A DNA stretch of 21,375 nt from positions 1 to 21,375 of the IMG/VR virus record IMGVR_UViG_3300032435_000083; one strand, written 5' to 3'. Shown here one piece after another: positions 6,187-21,260 of this stretch; within the stretch, counting starts at the first letter, position 1, and the number at the start of each line of letters is the position of its first letter. Made by a program: the position numbers and the translations under genes. Below the pieces are notes generated by a model. That model was not told the origin of the DNA. It did no database searches and was given only the letters and a program-made list of their open reading frames with translations. The stretch comes from a virus.

Positions 6187-6648
6187 ATGACAGTTCGGAC
6201 TTCTGCCGGCACCACATTGAAGGTGTCGGCATCTTCTCCTGCGACCTTTGATCCCACAGGCTACAACGCGCTCAATATGACGGTGGTTGGCGAAGTGTCA
6301 GACCTTGGCGAGTTTGGTCGCGAGTTCAATCTTGTAACCTTTAACCCAGTTGGTAGCCGCGGCGTGGTCAAGAAAAAGGGCAGCTTTAATCAGGGTACGA
6401 TGACCATCCAAATGGGTCTTGATACCGATGATACTGGCCAGATCTTGCTCAAATCCGCATCGATGTCCGATGCCGATCACAGCTTCCTTGTTACCACCCA
6501 GAACGGCGATAAATACTTTTTCCAGGCGCAGGTGATGAGCTTCAAGGTCAACGTCGGCTCTGTTGACCAGATCACCACTGCCACCGTGACGCTGGAACTC
6601 ACCACCAACTCTGCCGGCGTAGGCGTGGTTGAAGTGTTGGCGCCGTGA
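6187..6648 (+). CDS. Major tail tube protein
   Basis: A 153-residue protein with a clear ribosome site (AAGGA, 6173-6177). It is rich in beta strands, and the sequence FNPVGSRGVVKKKGSFNQG followed by a TIQMGLDTDDTGQILL segment and the final VTLELTTNSAGVGVVEVL is typical of the siphovirus tail tube proteins of alphaproteobacterial phages. Position after DUF3168 fits. It polymerises as hexameric rings around the tape measure protein. Unusually, the gene is followed by a toxin-antitoxin cassette rather than directly by the tail assembly chaperones. Its stop codon is the first three bases of a perfect 11-bp inverted repeat. Confidence 0.88.
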   Translation: MTVRTSAGTTLKVSASSPATFDPTGYNALNMTVVGEVSDLGEFGREFNLVTFNPVGSRGVVKKKGSFNQGTMTIQMGLDTDDTGQILLKSASMSDADHSFLVTTQNGDKYFFQAQVMSFKVNVGSVDQITTATVTLELTTNSAGVGVVEVLAP

Positions 6649-6673
6649 TCGATAAAATTCTATTTATCGATCA
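6646..6673. repeat. Perfect 11-bp inverted repeat overlapping the tail tube stop codon
   Basis: TGATCGATAAA and TTTATCGATCA are exact reverse complements around a six-base ATTCTA loop. The first three bases are the tail tube stop. There is no T-run after it, so it is not a classical intrinsic terminator. It may be an mRNA-end hairpin or a protein-binding palindrome, and it marks the left edge of the toxin-antitoxin cassette. Confidence 0.7.
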
Positions 6674-6690
6674 TCCTGACCTGACTAAGC

Positions 6691-6745
6691 ATCAATGTTC
6701 ATTTTCTGATATTATCTTGACATTTTCAAGTAAAGTGAACACATG
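6691..6745 (+). promoter_or_regulatory. Candidate promoter and operator of the toxin-antitoxin pair
   Basis: An AT-rich block lies upstream of the antitoxin. Nested palindromes are visible: TGTTCATTTT (6696-6705) faces AAAGTGAACA (6732-6741) with 9 of 10 pairs, and within them CTTGA-CATTT-TCAAG (6716-6730) is a perfect 5-bp inverted repeat. Promoter-like elements overlap them: an extended -10, TGATATTAT (6707-6715), and a TTGACA (6717-6722) whose -10 partner is weak. Antitoxins of this family commonly repress their own promoter by binding such palindromes. The operator role is inference. Confidence 0.55.
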
Positions 6746-6768
6746 AGTTGTCAGAAAGGTGCCCCAAT

Positions 6769-7155
6769 ATGCAAGCTGCTAGCACTGCACGACAGCCCGA
6801 ACGCAAGGATTTGACTGGCCCTGCGCTGCGGACTTTTTTCAGGATTGCCGAGGCTTGGGGGCTCAAGGAACAGGAGCAGATGCGGATCCTCGGACTTGAT
6901 AGCCGTTCGACCTTTCAGTCTTGGAAACGCGGCGCTGTCGCTGCAATTCCCAAAGATGCGCTGGAGCGCATCTCCTACGTCATGGGCATCTACAAGGGTT
7001 TGCAAATTCTGCTACCCCAAAGTGCCAATGACTGGGTGCGCAAGCCCAACAAGGCCAGCGTTTTCGGTGGCCGTCCGGCTATCGATCGTATGACTTCGGG
7101 CAATGTCGCCGATCTCTATGTGGTGCGCCAGTATATGGATGCACAGCGCGGGTGA
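6769..7155 (+). CDS. Xre/MbcA/ParS-type antitoxin (RES toxin partner)
   Basis: A 128-residue protein. ATG 6769 is chosen because AGAAAGG (6753-6759) lies nine bases upstream; a TTG at 6748 would add seven residues and would place that ribosome site inside the gene. Residues about 18-60 form a helix-turn-helix of the Xre-like type (LGLDSRSTFQSWKRG). Residues about 85-127 match the MbcA/ParS toxin-binding domain: SANDWVRKPNKASVFGGRP followed by AIDRM and a final amphipathic helix. Known partners block the RES toxin active site and repress the operon. The stop overlaps the toxin GTG (GTGA), fixing the pair as one operon. Confidence 0.9.
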   Translation: MQAASTARQPERKDLTGPALRTFFRIAEAWGLKEQEQMRILGLDSRSTFQSWKRGAVAAIPKDALERISYVMGIYKGLQILLPQSANDWVRKPNKASVFGGRPAIDRMTSGNVADLYVVRQYMDAQRG

Positions 7156-7835
7156 CCGACATTCCGGTTGCGCGAATTAATTGGCGACCATGCTACCGGA
7201 TCGTTCCTAGCCGCTTTCCGCCGGTGGGTTTGTTTGATGCGGTTGCCGATCCTGCGGATCTGGAGGCCGTGTTCCAGATCGAGGCGATGACGAACGATCG
7301 CCTGCGCGACGAAGCCGGTGAAATTGCCCTCGTTACACCTGAAGACCGTGTTTCAGGCCCAGGCACAACACCGATCATGACGGCTTTCACGCACCTCAAT
7401 ATCCAGGGTGACCGCTTCACGGATGGCAGTTACGGCGTGTTCTACGCCAGCCTGACGATCGAGACCGCAATTTCCGAGACGAAGTATCACCGTATTCGGT
7501 TTTTGCAGGCGACCGAAGAACCGGCGCAAGAACTCGATATGCGTGTCTATGCGGTCGATTTGGGGGCGGACTTGCACGACATTCGGGGAATGCGGGAAAG
7601 TCACCCGGCGTGGTACCATGCAACAAACTACGCCATGTCGCAGGAACTGGCCCGCAGTCTGAGAGAAAACGGTTCGGATGGCATCGCTTATGCCAGCGTC
7701 AGACACAGTAGTGGAGAATGCGTAGCTATCTTTCGTCCCCGGCTTTTGTCTAACTGCCGACAGGAACGGCATCTCTGCTACGTCTGGGACGGGCAGGCGA
7801 TTGCCATGATCTACGAGAAGAAGAACTTCGATTAA
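7152..7835 (+). CDS. RES-domain toxin (NAD+-consuming/ADP-ribosyltransferase type)
   Basis: A 227-residue protein starting at GTG 7152. The RES fold resembles ADP-ribosyltransferases; characterised members degrade NAD+ (P. putida Res, M. tuberculosis MbcT) or modify ribose-phosphate pyrophosphokinase (Sphingobium ParT). Candidate active residues are Arg88 in GDRFTDG, Tyr98 in GVFYASL, Glu109 in ETAISETKYH and Ser182 in YASVRHSSG. The Arg-Tyr and Tyr-Glu spacings (10 and 11) equal those I recall for P. putida Res (Arg31, Tyr41, Glu52). All candidates are present and the frame is intact, so the toxin is probably active and must be neutralised by the antitoxin before it. Which substrate it uses cannot be told from sequence. 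Confidence 0.9.
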   Translation: MTDIPVARINWRPCYRIVPSRFPPVGLFDAVADPADLEAVFQIEAMTNDRLRDEAGEIALVTPEDRVSGPGTTPIMTAFTHLNIQGDRFTDGSYGVFYASLTIETAISETKYHRIRFLQATEEPAQELDMRVYAVDLGADLHDIRGMRESHPAWYHATNYAMSQELARSLRENGSDGIAYASVRHSSGECVAIFRPRLLSNCRQERHLCYVWDGQAIAMIYEKKNFD

Positions 7836-7844
7836 CTGGCTAGC

Positions 7845-7869
7845 ATTCACCACAAATTTTGTGGTGAAT
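7845..7869. repeat. Near-perfect palindrome after the toxin gene
   Basis: ATTCACCACAAA (7845-7856) and TTTGTGGTGAAT (7858-7869) are exact reverse complements around a single T. As RNA it would fold as a 9-bp stem with a seven-base A/T loop. It lies ten bases after the toxin stop. There is no following T-run. It could be a transcript-end hairpin or a dimeric protein-binding site. Confidence 0.65.
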
Positions 7870-7885
7870 AGCTCGATCAATCACC

Positions 7886-7936
7886 GCAAGCACAAGCAAG
7901 CTTCCTGACAAGATCAGGCGGCTTGCTTGTGCTTGC
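7886..7936 (+). terminator. Long hairpin (16-bp perfect stem) between toxin and tail chaperone
   Basis: GCAAGCACAAGCAAGC (7886-7901) pairs perfectly with GCTTGCTTGTGCTTGC (7921-7936). The loop carries a second 5-bp stem, CCTGA/TCAGG (7904-7908, 7914-7918). The stem is itself built from reiterated CAAGCA units. The bases after it are CCCCTCACAAC, so a U-tract is missing and a simple intrinsic terminator is unlikely; an attenuator, RNase-processing site or insulator is possible. It sits 10 bases before the ribosome site of the next gene. Confidence 0.55.
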
Positions 7937-7959
7937 CCCTCACAACAAAGGAATTTTCT

Positions 7960-8376
7960 ATGTTTGATATTACCACACTGTCTGCCGCCGATACCTCCAC
8001 CGTGGATCTGGTTGGCGGTGATGATGCCCCGCTTTTTGACGATAAGGGCAAGCGCCTCTCGATCACGGTCTACGGCCCGGGTTCAAAGGTCTACCAGCGC
8101 GCACAGGCCCGCCAGCAGAACCAGCTGATGGACAAGATCAAGAAGCGCGGGAAGATGGATCAGTCGGCCGAGGAGAAGCTCTCCGAACAGGCAGATTTTC
8201 TTGCAGCCTGCACGCTCAGCTTCAATGGCTTCACCTATCCACCTGCAGACGGAATTGAAGGCGCAGACCACTTCTGTAAGGCCTATGCCGATCCCTCGAT
8301 TGGCTTCATCGCCGCCCAGGTTGCGGCCCACATCAATGACTGGGCAAATTTTACGAAGAGCTCAGTTCAGAGCTGA
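7960..8376 (+). CDS. Tail assembly chaperone, gpG-like
   Basis: A 138-residue protein. The start is ATG 7960, with AAAGGAA (7947-7953) upstream; an in-frame TTG at 7927 lies inside the hairpin and is rejected. The sequence has an N-terminal beta part (LFDDKGKRLSITVYGPGSK), a charged helix (about 50-72) and an alpha-helical C-terminus, as in small chaperones that coat the tape measure protein before tail assembly. It sits immediately before the tape measure block and ends in a canonical -1 frameshift cassette, which is the classic lambda G/GT arrangement. No sequence motif is strong on its own; position plus frameshift give the call. Confidence 0.8.
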   Translation: MFDITTLSAADTSTVDLVGGDDAPLFDDKGKRLSITVYGPGSKVYQRAQARQQNQLMDKIKKRGKMDQSAEEKLSEQADFLAACTLSFNGFTYPPADGIEGADHFCKAYADPSIGFIAAQVAAHINDWANFTKSSVQS

Positions 8377-8378
8377 GC
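8346..8378 (+). promoter_or_regulatory. Programmed -1 ribosomal frameshift signal
   Basis: In the frame of the upstream gene the heptamer A AAT TTT (8346-8352) fits X XXY YYZ exactly. Seven bases later a hairpin begins: GCTCAG (8360-8365) pairs with CTGAGC (8373-8378) around a seven-base loop. The zero-frame TGA (8374-8376) lies in the 3' arm. A -1 slip continues into the open frame of the following gene, which has no ATG, GTG or TTG between its upstream stop (8337-8339) and ATG 8484. Confidence 0.82.
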
Positions 8379-8831
8379 CTTTACGTCCGGCAACTAGCCT
8401 GGCTTGGCACGGCGCCTAAGCCGCGCTCCAATAAGCAGATCAAGCCGGACGCCGACACCGAACCGCTGACCCGGCTGCAGCGCATGGCTATCGACGATCT
8501 GACGCCGGACTTCCCAGCCATCCGCACCCCTTGGGTGATTGACTGGCTGATGGAAGTGGGCCCAACCGATCCCGGAGCCATGGGCGCAGTGCCGATCTCA
8601 TGGGGCTCGATAGGCAACTGGCAGCAGTGTGTGGGGCACGATCTGCAGCCGTGGATTGCTCGTCTCCTGCGCCGATTGTCGGCCGAGTTCGTCGCCGAGA
8701 CAGTCCGTGCCCGCGAACCTGATTGCCCGCCGCCCTGGGCAGCCGCCGCCAGCCTCAACCGTGATGAAGTCTCCCGGAAAGTGACCAACGCCTTTCGGGC
8801 GCTGATGATGTCGAAGGAGCCTGCAAAATGA
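8352..8831 (+). CDS. Tail assembly chaperone T-part, expressed as a -1 frameshift fusion (gpGT-like)
   Basis: This frame encodes 159 residues read after slippage at 8346-8352, giving a fusion of the first 131 residues of the upstream chaperone with this part (about 290 residues, codons 7960-8352 then 8352-8831). It begins with YEELSSELSLYVRQLAWLG, well-formed coding sequence that precedes any usable start codon. An internal ATG at 8484 could make a separate 115-residue protein but leaves 44 good codons unexplained. In lambda the equivalent GT product links the tape measure protein to the tail tube subunits. The stop overlaps the tape measure ATG (ATGA at 8828-8831). The region is rich in Trp and Pro (PDCPPPWAAAASLNRDE). 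No domain recognised by sequence alone. Confidence 0.75.
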   Translation, partial: YEELSSELSLYVRQLAWLGTAPKPRSNKQIKPDADTEPLTRLQRMAIDDLTPDFPAIRTPWVIDWLMEVGPTDPGAMGAVPISWGSIGNWQQCVGHDLQPWIARLLRRLSAEFVAETVRAREPDCPPPWAAAASLNRDEVSRKVTNAFRALMMSKEPAK

Positions 8832-11800
8832 AGGCTGGCACTTTGGAAATCGAGATGATCACCAATGTCGCCCGTCTCCAAAAAGAGATGGCGGACATCA
8901 AGCGGTCGGTTGCAGGCGCCATGGGTGATGTTGCGGCTTCGTCTGCTCAGGCTGACCGGGCCATCGAGGCTGTTGGCTCGCGCGGAATGACCCGCATGGG
9001 TGGTTCAGCAAAACTTGCCGGCCATCAGATGCAAAATCTCGTCTACCAACTCAACGACGTGGTGGTCAGCCTGTTCTCCGGCCAGAAGCCGATGACCGTG
9101 TTCATGCAGCAGGGCAGCCAGATCGGTCAGATCGCTATGCAGGCAGGTGTAGGGATCGGCGGGATGGCGCGCGCATTGCTTGGCCTTGCCGCCAGCGCTG
9201 CCATGGTCGCGCTCACCAATCCCTATCTGCTTGCGGCAGCGGCTGCCGCAGCGCTCGCCTTCGGGGCATTCAAGATGTTCCAGTCCAGCGTCAAACAATC
9301 GGGCGAACTCGACAAATATGCCGCAAGCCTTGGGCTCACTAAGAAAGAAATGGAGAAGCTGGGCCCGGTCGGAATTACTGTTGGCGATACCATGAGGGGT
9401 TTGTGGAAGACTGTGTCCGATGGCCTCAATCTTGGCCCAGTCTTCTCCACCCTGAAAGATTGGGCGGTCGTCGCCTTTGAAGCGATCCTTCAGGCCGGCA
9501 AATATGCTGTCGCGATCCTTTATGCTGGCTGGGTTGGCGGGTTCAACGCGATCCGGATCATCTGGTCGTCGCTGCCGGGCGTGATAGGTGAGGCAGCCGT
9601 TGGTGCTGCCAATCTGGCTATCACCGGCATCGAATATCTGGCCAACAAGGCTATTGCCGCGCTCAACTGGCTGGCAAGCTGGGTCAATCCGTTGCTCGAC
9701 CGGGTGGGCCTCGCTACCATCGGGCAGATCGAGAGTGTGGCGCTGCCGCGCATGGAAAACAGCTTTGCTGGATCGACGGCGCGGATGGGGGCTCAGGTCC
9801 GGGACGAGTTTTCTTCCGCCTTTGGCGATGCCATGGGCATGATGGACAGCTTCTCTGCAAAGTGGCGCGAGAACAGCATTGCCGCAGCCAAAGCCCGTCT
9901 TTCTGCCAAGGCCGACGAGATCAGGGGCGATAAGACGAACAAGGCGGACAAGACAGGAACGCAAAAAACAACTGACGCGGAAAAAGCGCTGCAAGCAGCC
10001 CAGCAGTTTGCCGCCAATCTCGCGATGGAAACCGCCAAGATCGGCAAGACCCCAATCGAAATCAAACGCATGGAAGTCGCCATTGCGGCGCTGAAGGCGC
10101 CAACCGACGCGGCGCGTATCGCTATTCTCGAAGCCGGTGAAGCATGGGAACAGACAACCCGCGCGTTCACCGCGTCTGAGTTCCTGCGCCAAACGGTCGC
10201 CCCGCTTGAACAGCAGGTCGCACTTCTGGGCCAGTCCGCGCGGGCGCAGGCACTCGCCAATCTTGAGGCGGAGCGCGAGCAGATTGTGCTCGAACGCGGC
10301 GCGGAAGCCTGGGAACGATATCGGGCCGCACGCACCCGCCTGATGGAGGCTGACTTTGCCCAAACGGACCAGGAGCAGTTCCTCACAAGCCTCGAGGACA
10401 TGGTCTCCGCGACAGAAGCTGCGGCTCAGGGCATGGCCGATGCTTTCGGTTCAGTTGGCAGGGCGATTGGCGGTATCACCGTCGAGATCACCCGTTTTGC
10501 CTCTGCGCAGGTGGCCGCTGCTAGCCGCGTCGCCGATGCAGAGCGTGAATATGGAAGGTCCTCGTTCCAGTACGCGGACGCGCGCACGGCGCAAGCTTCA
10601 GCCGAGATCAACCATTATGGCAATTTGGCCGCGGCCGCGAAGGGCTTCTTCAAGGAAGGCTCCCATGGCTTCAAAGCCATGGCAGCTGCCGAGATGGTGT
10701 TCCGTGCCTTTGAGCTTGCCATCGCCATCAAGAACGCAGCGGTGAAAATCGGGCTGATCGGTGCACAGACCGCTGCCAAGGTGACCTCCGATACGACGAT
10801 GGCGGTCTCCGACACCGCGCGGGCCGGCGTCGAACAGGGCAATTCGATTATCACCACCGGCATCAAGGCGGTTGAGGCGGTCGTGAACGCCATCCGCTCG
10901 CTGCCGTTCCCGCTTAACATTGCCGCAGGGGCCGCCACCGCAGCGGTGATAGCATCGCTCGGCATCGCAATTGGCGGTGCCTTTGGCGGTGGCGGCACCA
11001 AGCCCACGCCTGCCAATAATGGCTCCGGCACCGTCTTTGGCGATAGCGCGGCCAAATCCGAGAGCATTGCCAAAGCGATCGATCATCTGCGTGAGGTCGA
11101 CACGCTGACCATGCGCTATTCCGCTGCGATGCTGGCATCGCTGAAAAGCATTGAAGCCAATATCGGCGGGCTCACCAATCTGATCATTCGCACCAACGGC
11201 ATGGAAGGGTCGGCCGCCGGTATCCAGACCGGTACCAAGCTCACCGGGCTTTTGGGCACAGCCAATTCGATGCTTACCGGTATCTCCAACTTTGCCAGCA
11301 GTAAGACAGGATCGCTGATTGGTGCAGGCATTGGCATGGCCATCGCTGGACCGATTGGCGCTGCAATCGGCTTTCTGGGCGCCAAGCTGCTGGGCGGTCT
11401 GGGCAAGGTCCTGGGCAGTATCGTCAATGCGCTGTTTGGCACCAAGACCAGCATCGTTGGCCAGGGCATTTATGGCGGTGCACAGTCGCTCGGATCGATC
11501 ATGTCGGGCGGCTATGACGCGAGCTATTATTCCGACATCAAGAAGACCAAGAAGTTCCTCGGGATCAGCACCGGCTCGAGCTACTCTAAGCAGTACAGCG
11601 CGGCTGACGCCGAACTCGAACGCCAGTTCAGCCTGATCTTCGAAGGCTTCTACAGCGCAATCTCGGCGGCCGCCGGCCCTCTCGGTATGTCGCTCGGCGA
11701 GGTTCAGTCCCGCCTTTCCGGCTTTGTCGTCAACATCGGCAAGATCGATTTGAAGGGGCTGACCGGCGCGGAGATCCAAGAGAAGCTGACCGCAGTCTTT

Positions 11801-13021
11801 GGCGCGGCCGCCGACAATCTGGCTCGCACTGCGGTGCCGGGGCTTGAGCAGTTCCAGAAGGTCGGCGAAGGCTATTTTGAGACGCTGGTTCGCGTCGCCT
11901 CCAGCATCGAGGCGGTCACCAGTTCGCTCAGCTTGCTGGGCACCTCGGTCGAGGGTCTGAGCCTCAGTGCGAAGATGAGCCTCTTCGACCTGTTCGGCTC
12001 GGCCAGCGACTTGGCGTCTGCGACAGGCGAGTATTTCAACCTCTATTACACCAAGGCCGAGCAGGCCGCGGCGCAGACCGCGCAGTTGGCCAGGGTCTTT
12101 GATAGCCTCGGGCTTGCGCTGCCCGGCAGCATCGCGGGGTTTCGCGCACTCGTTGAAGCGCAGGATCTTAGCACGGCATCAGGACAGGCCGCCTATGCAG
12201 CGCTGATCCTGCTCACCCCAGCGTTCGCCGACCTGGTGGGTGCTGCTCAGTATGCCGCAAGTGCCGCTGCCATTCTCGATGAGCGACTGTCACTCGAGCG
12301 GCGGATGTTGGAACTCCAGGGCGATACTGCGGCACTACGCGCGCTCGACCTTGCCCAGATCGATGCGTCCAACAAGGCACTGCAGGAACAGGTCTGGGCC
12401 CTCGAAGACCAGCAAAAGGCAGCCGAGGATGCCGCCAATGCCGCCGAGCAGCTTAGGAATGCTTGGGCCCAGATTACCGATGGGTTGATCGCGGAGATCA
12501 AGCGGATCCGCGGCGTGATGAGCGACACACCGACCAACTATTCATCGGCGCTCGCTGCATTCAACAATGCCTCGATGCTGGCGCGCGCAGGTGACCAGGA
12601 AGCGGCCAAAATGCTGCCGGGCTTGAGCCAGGCTCTGATCTCGGTCGCAGCCAACACCGCTCGGTCAGCCGAAGATCTGGCCCGGCTTCAGGGGCTGACC
12701 GCGGCGAGCATCGAACAGACATTGGCGATCATCAATCAGGCGAGCGGGACGGAACCCGCTGCTGCGACATCTGCCGCCGCTGCGCCAAGTTGGTGGGACC
12801 AGTTCGCTGCCAACCAGATCGGCGCGGCGACGGTCCCGGCCAATGATGGGCAGGCCGCGATGGTCGATGAACTCAAGGCGCTTAGGCAAGAAGTGTCGGA
12901 CCTTCGCGACGAGCAGCGCATTGCCGCAGCCACAATCGCGTCGGGTACCAGCAAAACTGCCCGTATCCTTGAGCGGGTCACGCCTGATGGCGATGCCATT
13001 TCCACTAGGGCTGCGGCATGA
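8828..13021 (+). CDS. Tail length tape measure protein
   Basis: A 1397-residue protein, the longest in the window. Residues about 60-115 match the prophage tape measure N-terminal type (QMQNLVYQLNDVVVSLFSG then PMTVFMQQGSQIGQIAMQAG). Three hydrophobic segments, near residues 113-150, 696-720 and 827-870, are Gly/Ala-rich as in tape measures that insert into the cell envelope on DNA entry. Long helical Ala/Glu/Gln regions lie between, and a coiled-coil segment (DELKALRQEVSDLRDEQR) ends the protein. By the usual rule of about 1.5 angstrom per residue this suggests a tail of roughly 200 nm. No lytic transglycosylase or peptidase motif is obvious. It follows the chaperones directly and overlaps the next gene (ATGA). 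Confidence 0.95.
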   Translation: MKAGTLEIEMITNVARLQKEMADIKRSVAGAMGDVAASSAQADRAIEAVGSRGMTRMGGSAKLAGHQMQNLVYQLNDVVVSLFSGQKPMTVFMQQGSQIGQIAMQAGVGIGGMARALLGLAASAAMVALTNPYLLAAAAAAALAFGAFKMFQSSVKQSGELDKYAASLGLTKKEMEKLGPVGITVGDTMRGLWKTVSDGLNLGPVFSTLKDWAVVAFEAILQAGKYAVAILYAGWVGGFNAIRIIWSSLPGVIGEAAVGAANLAITGIEYLANKAIAALNWLASWVNPLLDRVGLATIGQIESVALPRMENSFAGSTARMGAQVRDEFSSAFGDAMGMMDSFSAKWRENSIAAAKARLSAKADEIRGDKTNKADKTGTQKTTDAEKALQAAQQFAANLAMETAKIGKTPIEIKRMEVAIAALKAPTDAARIAILEAGEAWEQTTRAFTASEFLRQTVAPLEQQVALLGQSARAQALANLEAEREQIVLERGAEAWERYRAARTRLMEADFAQTDQEQFLTSLEDMVSATEAAAQGMADAFGSVGRAIGGITVEITRFASAQVAAASRVADAEREYGRSSFQYADARTAQASAEINHYGNLAAAAKGFFKEGSHGFKAMAAAEMVFRAFELAIAIKNAAVKIGLIGAQTAAKVTSDTTMAVSDTARAGVEQGNSIITTGIKAVEAVVNAIRSLPFPLNIAAGAATAAVIASLGIAIGGAFGGGGTKPTPANNGSGTVFGDSAAKSESIAKAIDHLREVDTLTMRYSAAMLASLKSIEANIGGLTNLIIRTNGMEGSAAGIQTGTKLTGLLGTANSMLTGISNFASSKTGSLIGAGIGMAIAGPIGAAIGFLGAKLLGGLGKVLGSIVNALFGTKTSIVGQGIYGGAQSLGSIMSGGYDASYYSDIKKTKKFLGISTGSSYSKQYSAADAELERQFSLIFEGFYSAISAAAGPLGMSLGEVQSRLSGFVVNIGKIDLKGLTGAEIQEKLTAVFGAAADNLARTAVPGLEQFQKVGEGYFETLVRVASSIEAVTSSLSLLGTSVEGLSLSAKMSLFDLFGSASDLASATGEYFNLYYTKAEQAAAQTAQLARVFDSLGLALPGSIAGFRALVEAQDLSTASGQAAYAALILLTPAFADLVGAAQYAASAAAILDERLSLERRMLELQGDTAALRALDLAQIDASNKALQEQVWALEDQQKAAEDAANAAEQLRNAWAQITDGLIAEIKRIRGVMSDTPTNYSSALAAFNNASMLARAGDQEAAKMLPGLSQALISVAANTARSAEDLARLQGLTAASIEQTLAIINQASGTEPAAATSAAAAPSWWDQFAANQIGAATVPANDGQAAMVDELKALRQEVSDLRDEQRIAAATIASGTSKTARILERVTPDGDAISTRAAA

Positions 13022-19861: not shown

Positions 19862-19914
19862 TTTTTGATCAAACTCTGAATCAATAGGTCTCCATGATAT
19901 GGAGGTCATGTATA

Positions 19915-21260
19915 ATGAGTGCATCTATCGAGACAACGTTAGAACTTTGGGCATCTTCGCTACGGGATGTGAAGGGACGGATGCGGGAATTATTCACGCA
20001 GGACCGCGTCGCGGCATCGGCGGGTCTATTTCTGGATGGGTTGTTGTCCGACGAGCGGCGCAAGACGGGCTGGATGCGGGCCGAGGCTGCTGGCGATCCG
20101 GGACCTTGGCGGCAGCAGGCTATCCTGGGTCGTGGGCGCTGGGATGCGGACGGGCTGCGGGACATCGTGCGCGAATATGTCGTCGAGCATCTGGGCACTG
20201 ACGATGGGGTTCTGGTTATTGATGAGACCGGGTTCCTCAAGCAGGGCAAGTCATCGTGCGGCGTAGCGCGCCAATACACAGGGTCAGCTGGCAAGATAAC
20301 GAACTGTCAGATTGGTGTGTTTGCAGCCTATGTGTCTGCTCGCGGCCACGCCTTTATTGATCGCGCTTTGTACTTGCCCAAGACCTGGACCGGTAACTCT
20401 GCGCGGCTTTCAGCAACCCATATTCCTGAAGCTATAGTTTTCGCTACCAAACCCGCGCTTGCTGTGCAGATGATCGACCGTGCGATGGCATCAGGTGTTC
20501 CATTTTCGTGGGTTGCGGCGGATGCGGTATACGGTGTTGGCGATGTCGAACAAGCCTTGAGACGCGCTTGCAAAGGCTATGTTCTTGGGGTGAAATCCAA
20601 CCATCATTTTGGCTCGTGGTCGCGCGTGCCCCCGATCGGTGGAATGGCCCGGGATATCGCACAGGAACTCGAACCCGGTGCGTGGCATCGCCTATCGGCT
20701 GGCGAGGGTACCAAGGGCCCGCGGCTTCATGACTGGGCATATCTCGAACTCGCCGATCTCAACGCGGACGAATATGACGAGACGAAATCAGGGCTGTGGA
20801 CCCGCGGCCTGCTGATCCGCCGCAATATCAGCGATGATGATCTTGCCTTCTTTACAACCTGGTGCCCAGCAGGCACGGACATCCAGACGCTCGTCTGTGT
20901 TGAAGGACATCGCTGGGCGATCGAAGATAGCTTTGAAACCGCCAAGAACGAGCTTGGCCTTGATCACAACGAAACCCGATCCTGGCATGGCTGGCACCGC
21001 CATATGTCCCTCGTGATGCTTGCTTTTGCCATGATGGCAGCGATCCGGTACCGCGCCAATGATATGACGCCCCCAAAAAGACCAAAGATGAGGGCCATCC
21101 CTATCTGATACGCTGGTCCATCCAGGAAATCCGACGCATCGCAAACAGGCTTGCACAGTGCCATATTCAACCCGACTACATCATCGCATGGTCATGTTGG
21201 CGACGCGCCCATCAAGCAGCCGCTCGAAAAGCTCATCTCAAATCTAGAGTGCAACTGTAA
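19915..21260 (+). pseudogene. IS701-family transposase, frame-broken near C-terminus
   Basis: ATG 19915 has GGAGG (19901-19905) nine bases upstream. The first frame runs to TGA 21106-21108. DDE residues fit: Asp103 in VLVIDETGFLKQG, Asp203 in WVAADAVYGVG and a Glu near 337 in RWAIEDSFETAKNELGLDH. After MTPPK the expected family C-terminus is found in the -1 frame: AAG ACC AAA from 21078 reads KTKDEGHPYLIRWSIQEIRR, continuing through YIIAWSCWRRAHQ to TAA 21258-21260, just inside the right repeat. Joined, the protein is about 448 residues, normal for the family. The break is at CCCCCAAAAAG (21070-21080): one A lost from the run is the simplest cause. A programmed -1 slip at C CCA AAA (21072-21078) is also formally possible. 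Confidence 0.85.

Follow-up and report, generated by a model that had tools for sequence, protein, structure and literature searches.

The window analyzed here is a 21,375-nucleotide stretch of viral DNA that represents a siphophage-like structural region, with putative portal-, protease- and capsid-like ORFs (read off the ORFs alone) and connector genes. Its plus strand carries a major tail protein gene at positions 6187 to 6648 (phrog_158, E = 7e-16) and, further downstream, a tape measure protein gene at positions 8828 to 13021, which encodes 1,397 amino acids (Pfam TMP_2, E = 2e-16; phrog_7740, E = 5e-51). Between these two genes lies a pair of overlapping ORFs, with an RES-Xre cassette intervening on the major tail protein side in the window.

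The upstream ORF of the pair (zero frame, plus strand) starts at ATG 7960 and stops at TGA 8374 to 8376, giving a product of 138 amino acids. Its 3' end reads GAC TGG GCA AAT TTT ACG AAG AGC TCA GTT CAG AGC TGA. A putative slippery heptamer, A_AAT_TTT, occupies positions 8346 to 8352; the codons around it are GCA (8344), AAT (8347), TTT (8350) and ACG (8353), which places the heptamer in the X_XXY_YYZ phase of the zero frame, a phase that suits a two-tRNA −1 slip. A spacer of 7 nucleotides (8353 to 8359) separates the heptamer from a putative stimulatory hairpin at positions 8360 to 8378, in which GCTCAG (8360 to 8365) pairs with CTGAGC (8373 to 8378) to form a 6-bp core (GCUCAG/CUGAGC in the RNA). 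The zero-frame TGA lies inside the 3' arm of this hairpin.

The −1 frame of the plus strand is open from position 8340 to position 8831, bounded by stops at 8337 to 8339 and 8829 to 8831, and reads FYEELSSELSLYVRQLAWLGT... as far as the second of these stops. A scan for starts found the earliest ATG, GTG or TTG in this frame to be ATG 8484, so that 44 codons past the heptamer (those at 8352 to 8481) precede it. Reading of the −1 frame after a shift (8352 to 8831) would add a T-like domain of 159 amino acids, and the predicted fusion is 290 amino acids long. The preliminary description had listed the in-frame heptamer, the seven-base spacer, the 6-bp hairpin with the stop in its 3' arm and the startless stretch before 8484; each was found as described when checked against the sequence, and all of its coordinates were correct. 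No Shine-Dalgarno-like stimulator was seen by eye in the upstream sequence CACATCAATGACTGGGC. Such a stimulator, found in dnaX, is an optional feature and is not required of a frameshift signal, so its absence has no bearing on whether the site belongs to that class.

The identity of the zero-frame product was approached by profile and structure comparison. Its match to phrog_313, "Tail assembly chaperone," was weak (E = 0.0013), while the homologue in phage 438212 matched the same family at 1.9e-14. The AlphaFold model (pLDDT of 77) had as its best solved match the HK97 tail assembly chaperone 2OB9, with a Z score of 6.0 over 100 residues at 5.3 Å (next match, 3.7), but with only 12% identity over the aligned residues. 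Most of the named structural matches in BFVD were chaperones of the tape-measure or tail assembly type, and the two forms from Caulobacter phage Sansa ranked among the best matches. Pfam and NCBIfam named neither product above cutoff, no solved structure was found by sequence search, and a Foldseek search of the PDB returned nothing significant. The model of the −1 domain (pLDDT of 58) was too poor for a structure search. Each of these pieces is weak alone; taken together with the gene order, the phrog_313, 2OB9 and BFVD matches make the predicted assignment of the zero-frame product as a short tail assembly chaperone, similar to lambda gpG, convincing.

Conservation of the heptamer and coding in the −1 frame

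Relatives were collected by scans of IMG/VR, which yielded 75 loci with the −1 product and 80 loci with the zero-frame product (largely the same contigs), and by one scan of GTDB genomes, which yielded 13 genome-contig loci. AAATTTT was kept in 75/75 relatives of the −1 product, in 80/80 relatives of the zero-frame product and in 12 of the 13 genome-contig loci. The zero-frame stop was at a constant offset of 24 nucleotides in all 75 relatives found with the −1 product; in L129, a locus of the zero-frame set, the stop comes later and the heptamer is still present.

For codon analysis the set was reduced to 66 cassettes differing by at least 3%. Codons 129 to 132 (GCA-AAT-TTT-ACG) did not vary in these cassettes, synonymous changes included. 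Among 74 codons that stand for the stop or for an invariant residue with degenerate codons, only 9 were invariant as codons, and 5 of these 9 were GCA-AAT-TTT-ACG and the stop. Elsewhere in the chaperone genes, Asn is mostly encoded by AAC (127 versus 78) and Phe by TTC (304 versus 138). The nucleotides of this block are thus selected for more than their protein meaning in one frame. The preliminary description had proposed an alignment of homologues as a check, and both the heptamer and the stem (see below) proved to be conserved.

Conservation is the deciding evidence here, since the presence of the heptamer alone is not informative. The window holds two copies of AAATTTT against 1.97 expected from shuffles, and the count was therefore rejected as evidence. 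In the genes of the window, in-frame XXXYYYZ words occur at 18 of 6,338 codons, which corresponds to a chance of about 3% of finding one within the stretch of approximately 11 codons in which the two ORFs could be joined by a −1 slip.

The −1 frame bears a coding pattern of its own just past the zero-frame stop. In the 12 codons that follow the stop, variation fell in 15, 4 and 188 cells at codon positions 1, 2 and 3, respectively, and this stretch is well upstream of the first start codon in the −1 frame. Residues E8, L9, L11 and R14 to L19 of the −1 product, all located between the heptamer and the first start, were invariant in relatives down to 36 to 39% identity. The first −1-frame starts were at differing offsets, with no ATG, GTG or TTG position common to the 75 relatives. 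The downstream ORF thus overlaps the upstream one in the −1 frame and has no conserved start of its own, and the coding constraint ahead of scattered starts favors a fusion and disfavors internal initiation.

Three other accounts of the overlap were weighed against this pattern. The downstream ORF might be an independent gene that starts at ATG 8484 or at another internal start, the overlap being incidental. An ATG is indeed present at 8484, and the first −1-frame start is at the same offset in 46 of the 75 relatives; in others, however, it is elsewhere (at +162 in L072 and L073 and at +174 in L074), and some relatives have none nearby. A start at 8484 would also leave out EL.LY.RQLAWL, the stretch of the −1 product that is conserved best and whose coding is constrained. 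The sequence ahead of 8484 (CTGCAGCGCATG) has no purine-rich ribosome binding site, and the invariant GCA-AAT-TTT-ACG would be left unexplained. We consider independent initiation highly unlikely. Slippage by RNA polymerase, rather than by the ribosome, could also change the frame, and a short A/T run is present; the run is, however, only A3T4, whereas runs of more than seven A or more than eight T are cited for transcriptional realignment (PMC3711429), and the codon phase of the heptamer and the hairpin at 7 nucleotides suit ribosomal slippage. This account is exceedingly improbable. That a single ORF was split by sequencing error or gene decay has a negligible probability and is already refuted by the relatives: about 90 independent assemblies, GTDB genome contigs included, show the identical split at one and the same base, and the same kind of split is found in sequenced phages of Acinetobacter, Roseobacter, Rhizobium, Pasteurella and Vibrio. 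Of the outcomes that the preliminary description had named as refuting its proposal, none was seen: the relatives showed neither a conserved separate start nor a homologue fused in one frame.

The hairpin downstream of the heptamer

Folding with ViennaRNA predicted a stem of 8 bp in the window copy (the 6-bp core plus UU/AG) with a 3-nucleotide loop, a free energy of −10.3 kcal/mol and a z score of −3.4. All 66 cassettes, representing 51 distinct 60-nucleotide sequences, folded a hairpin close behind the heptamer. The six-pair core could be formed in 94.8% of cells, compared with 16 to 48% in slid controls. A stem in another register was considered and rejected, as only 17% of its cells were paired. 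When the −1 frame was recoded synonymously, only 0.55% of the recodings were as stable as the window hairpin; the same test was weaker for three of the 13 relatives tested (L072, L175 and L064), for which 9 to 14% of recodings were as stable.

Compensatory double changes were seen at two stem pairs, each in a single sequence. In L080, a double change converts one stem pair from C-G to G-C. In L167 (hairpin at L167:2998-3022), a C-G to G-C swap keeps the stem but moves the stop, so that the 3' arm loses its TGA and the 5' arm gains a new one; the heptamer of this locus is CCATTTT. Between 7 and 16 of 500 column shuffles reached the observed covariation measures, which is modest support for the hairpin. 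RNAalifold gave a slightly different and weak consensus structure for the same alignment, in which four of the six core pairs were retained, and matches to Rfam near the site were at chance level only. Overall, the evidence that the hairpin is conserved downstream of the heptamer is good but not overwhelming.

Frameshifting could be real with the heptamer sufficient for it, the hairpin being a by-product of overlapping coding. Weak stems in some relatives are in keeping with this, as is the finding that, of 64 heptamers, 39 gave shifting above background with no stimulator present (PMC4066793), and two-frame coding constrains the hairpin region in any case. On the other hand, the core is paired in nearly all cells, the stem of L167 is kept by a swap while the stop changes arm, L080 swaps another pair, and the window hairpin is more stable than 99.4% of its synonymous recodings. 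A by-product hairpin is therefore unlikely in our judgment, and a hairpin that contributes to frameshifting is the reading followed below.

Proposed mechanism and comparison with known frameshift sites

These results led us to conclude, with high confidence, that positions 7960 to 8831, within the tail operon of a siphophage, carry a site of −1 programmed ribosomal frameshifting like that of lambda G/GT. The observed basis is the anatomy of the site, its nucleotide conservation, the coding constraint in the −1 frame ahead of any start, the chaperone-like fold and the gene order; that ribosomes slip here, how efficiently they do so and what the two products do is inferred. The preliminary description had likewise named a tail assembly chaperone pair that uses −1 frameshifting, and the conservation of heptamer and hairpin, the chaperone matches and the gene order support that proposal.

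In the proposed mechanism, most ribosomes would read 7960 to 8376 and end at TGA 8374, producing the 138-amino-acid tail assembly chaperone. A minority, delayed by the hairpin that starts 7 nucleotides downstream, would move back by one base at A_AAU_UUU. In the P site, tRNA-Asn would exchange its AAU codon for AAA, a near-cognate pairing, and in the A site, tRNA-Phe would leave one UUU codon for another and stay fully cognate. The slipped ribosomes would produce the 290-amino-acid fusion, ...DWANF-YEELSSEL..., with its extra 159-amino-acid domain. By analogy to lambda, the tape-measure protein would be coated by the short form, and the domain present only in the fusion would recruit the major tail protein.

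Lambda G/GT, in which a −1 frameshift at GGGAAAG generates two tail chaperone products, is the textbook case (PMC5009743). The locus described here shares with it the order of major tail, G/GT and tape measure genes, a short chaperone with a −1 fusion, and a downstream frame without its own conserved start. Unlike lambda, it has AAATTTT in place of GGGAAAG and a clear hairpin 7 nucleotides downstream that holds the stop. The comparison with lambda covered design and gene order. An annotated parallel is Caulobacter phage Sansa (KT001913, CPT_Sansa35/36), for which 161- and 310-amino-acid forms are annotated with ribosomal slippage, likewise between tail subunit and tape measure genes; the slip, however, is annotated at 20116 in the context GGGAAAAG and not at AAATTTT.

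The heptamer had been described earlier as a distinct solution. This stands insofar as AAATTTT is not the lambda word, but A_AA.U_UU.U is one of the H_HH.U_UU.Y words, a class that ranked with the most efficient for −1 shifting when tested in E. coli (Sharma et al. 2014, PMC4066793); those measurements were made with IS3/IS911 stimulators and not in a phage tail gene. Tail chaperone genes use many different slippery words (PMC10885494). In the literature searched, AAATTTT or AAAUUUU was not found as a phage tail frameshift site, although an earlier mention, as in the list of Xu et al. 2004, is possible. Although −1 frameshifting in tail chaperone genes is known, AAATTTT as the conserved word of a phage chaperone family is apparently undescribed.

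Distant phage homologues, with proteins about 23 to 33% identical where compared, share this architecture and could join the two frames by a −1 shift at roughly the corresponding position, in most cases with other words: AAATTTT in Acinetobacter phage Effie, AAATTTC in phage sp. 438212, GGATTTT in Roseobacter phage CRP-6, AACTTTT in Vibrio phage K67, GGGAAAC in Pasteurella phage Pm86 and TTTTTTC in Rhizobium phage RHph_X2_24. In the public records examined, these frameshifts are unannotated, and the two ORFs are listed as separate hypothetical proteins. The words CCATTTT (L167), GGATTTT (CRP-6) and AACTTTT (K67) retain only the U_UUU part and offer no clean P-site re-pairing; the tetramer U_UU.U alone works at a low level with a stimulator (PMC4066793). 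It is possible, though somewhat doubtful, that across the superfamily the A-site U_UUU is maintained by selection and the P-site half is being lost. Phage tail genes in nature would in that case form a graded series from heptamer to tetramer frameshifting at a single homologous position, and this series could serve directly to test the P-site contribution and the tolerance of tails to altered chaperone ratios.

The chaperone family was seen to be widespread among viral contigs and genome contigs of the sphingomonad type, and the phage is one of sphingomonad-type bacteria. A DNA-level search of phage records found nothing, and among 385 genomes sampled from the class to which one relative belongs, that relative was the sole hit; the spread of the family was therefore judged from the other collections. 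The fusion product would be missed by gene finders, and the homologous sites provide a series of slippery words for comparison of efficiency. The finding leaves the understanding of the frameshifting mechanism unchanged.

Cargo between the major tail protein and chaperone genes

The interval between the major tail protein and chaperone genes (6649 to 7959 in the window; loci L076 to L175) is a cargo hotspot. In 46 of the loci examined, roughly half of the relatives, it is only about 30 bp long; elsewhere it spans 0.1 to 1.7 kb. In the window it holds an RES-Xre toxin-antitoxin pair at positions 6748 to 7835. SoFic-like Fic proteins occur in two orientations in L124 and L097 (PADLOC SoFic, E = 1e-38 and 2e-45), and other cargo includes a ROS/MUCR regulator (L108), a YnfA/UPF0060 membrane protein (L159), a TonB-C protein (L141) and PilZ (L129), among others. 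The same interval also holds tRNA-Leu genes (anticodons TAA and TAG), singly or in pairs, on the minus strand; they lie within the tail operon but run opposite to it, in L088 (L088:2264-2449), L163 (L163:2375-2560), L104, L155, L141, L115, L148, L031 and L109.

A repeated half-site, ATCACCGCA, often arranged as the palindrome ATCACCGCA-N5-TGCGGTGAT, was found in 19 of 80 loci at most 220 nucleotides ahead of the chaperone gene, in up to five copies, beside different cargos and at two nearly empty sites; elsewhere it was nearly lacking, at 0.013 per kb. It is a candidate operator, terminator or exchange site. It occurs in the window at 7846 to 7869 and 7880 to 7888, and also in L097, L080, L121, L124, L077 and L078. 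A long inverted repeat, GCAAGCACAAGCAAGC...GCTTGCTTGTGCTTGC, lies at 7886 to 7936 of the window, just upstream of the chaperone start, and has no T run. On the other side of the chaperone gene, Rhizobium phage RHph_X2_24 has an annotated homing endonuclease gene between the chaperone and tape measure genes (L182:2246-2872). At the right end of the phage region in the window, an ORF at positions 19894 to 21108 encodes a DDE-type transposase (Pfam DDE_5, E = 2.5e-45).
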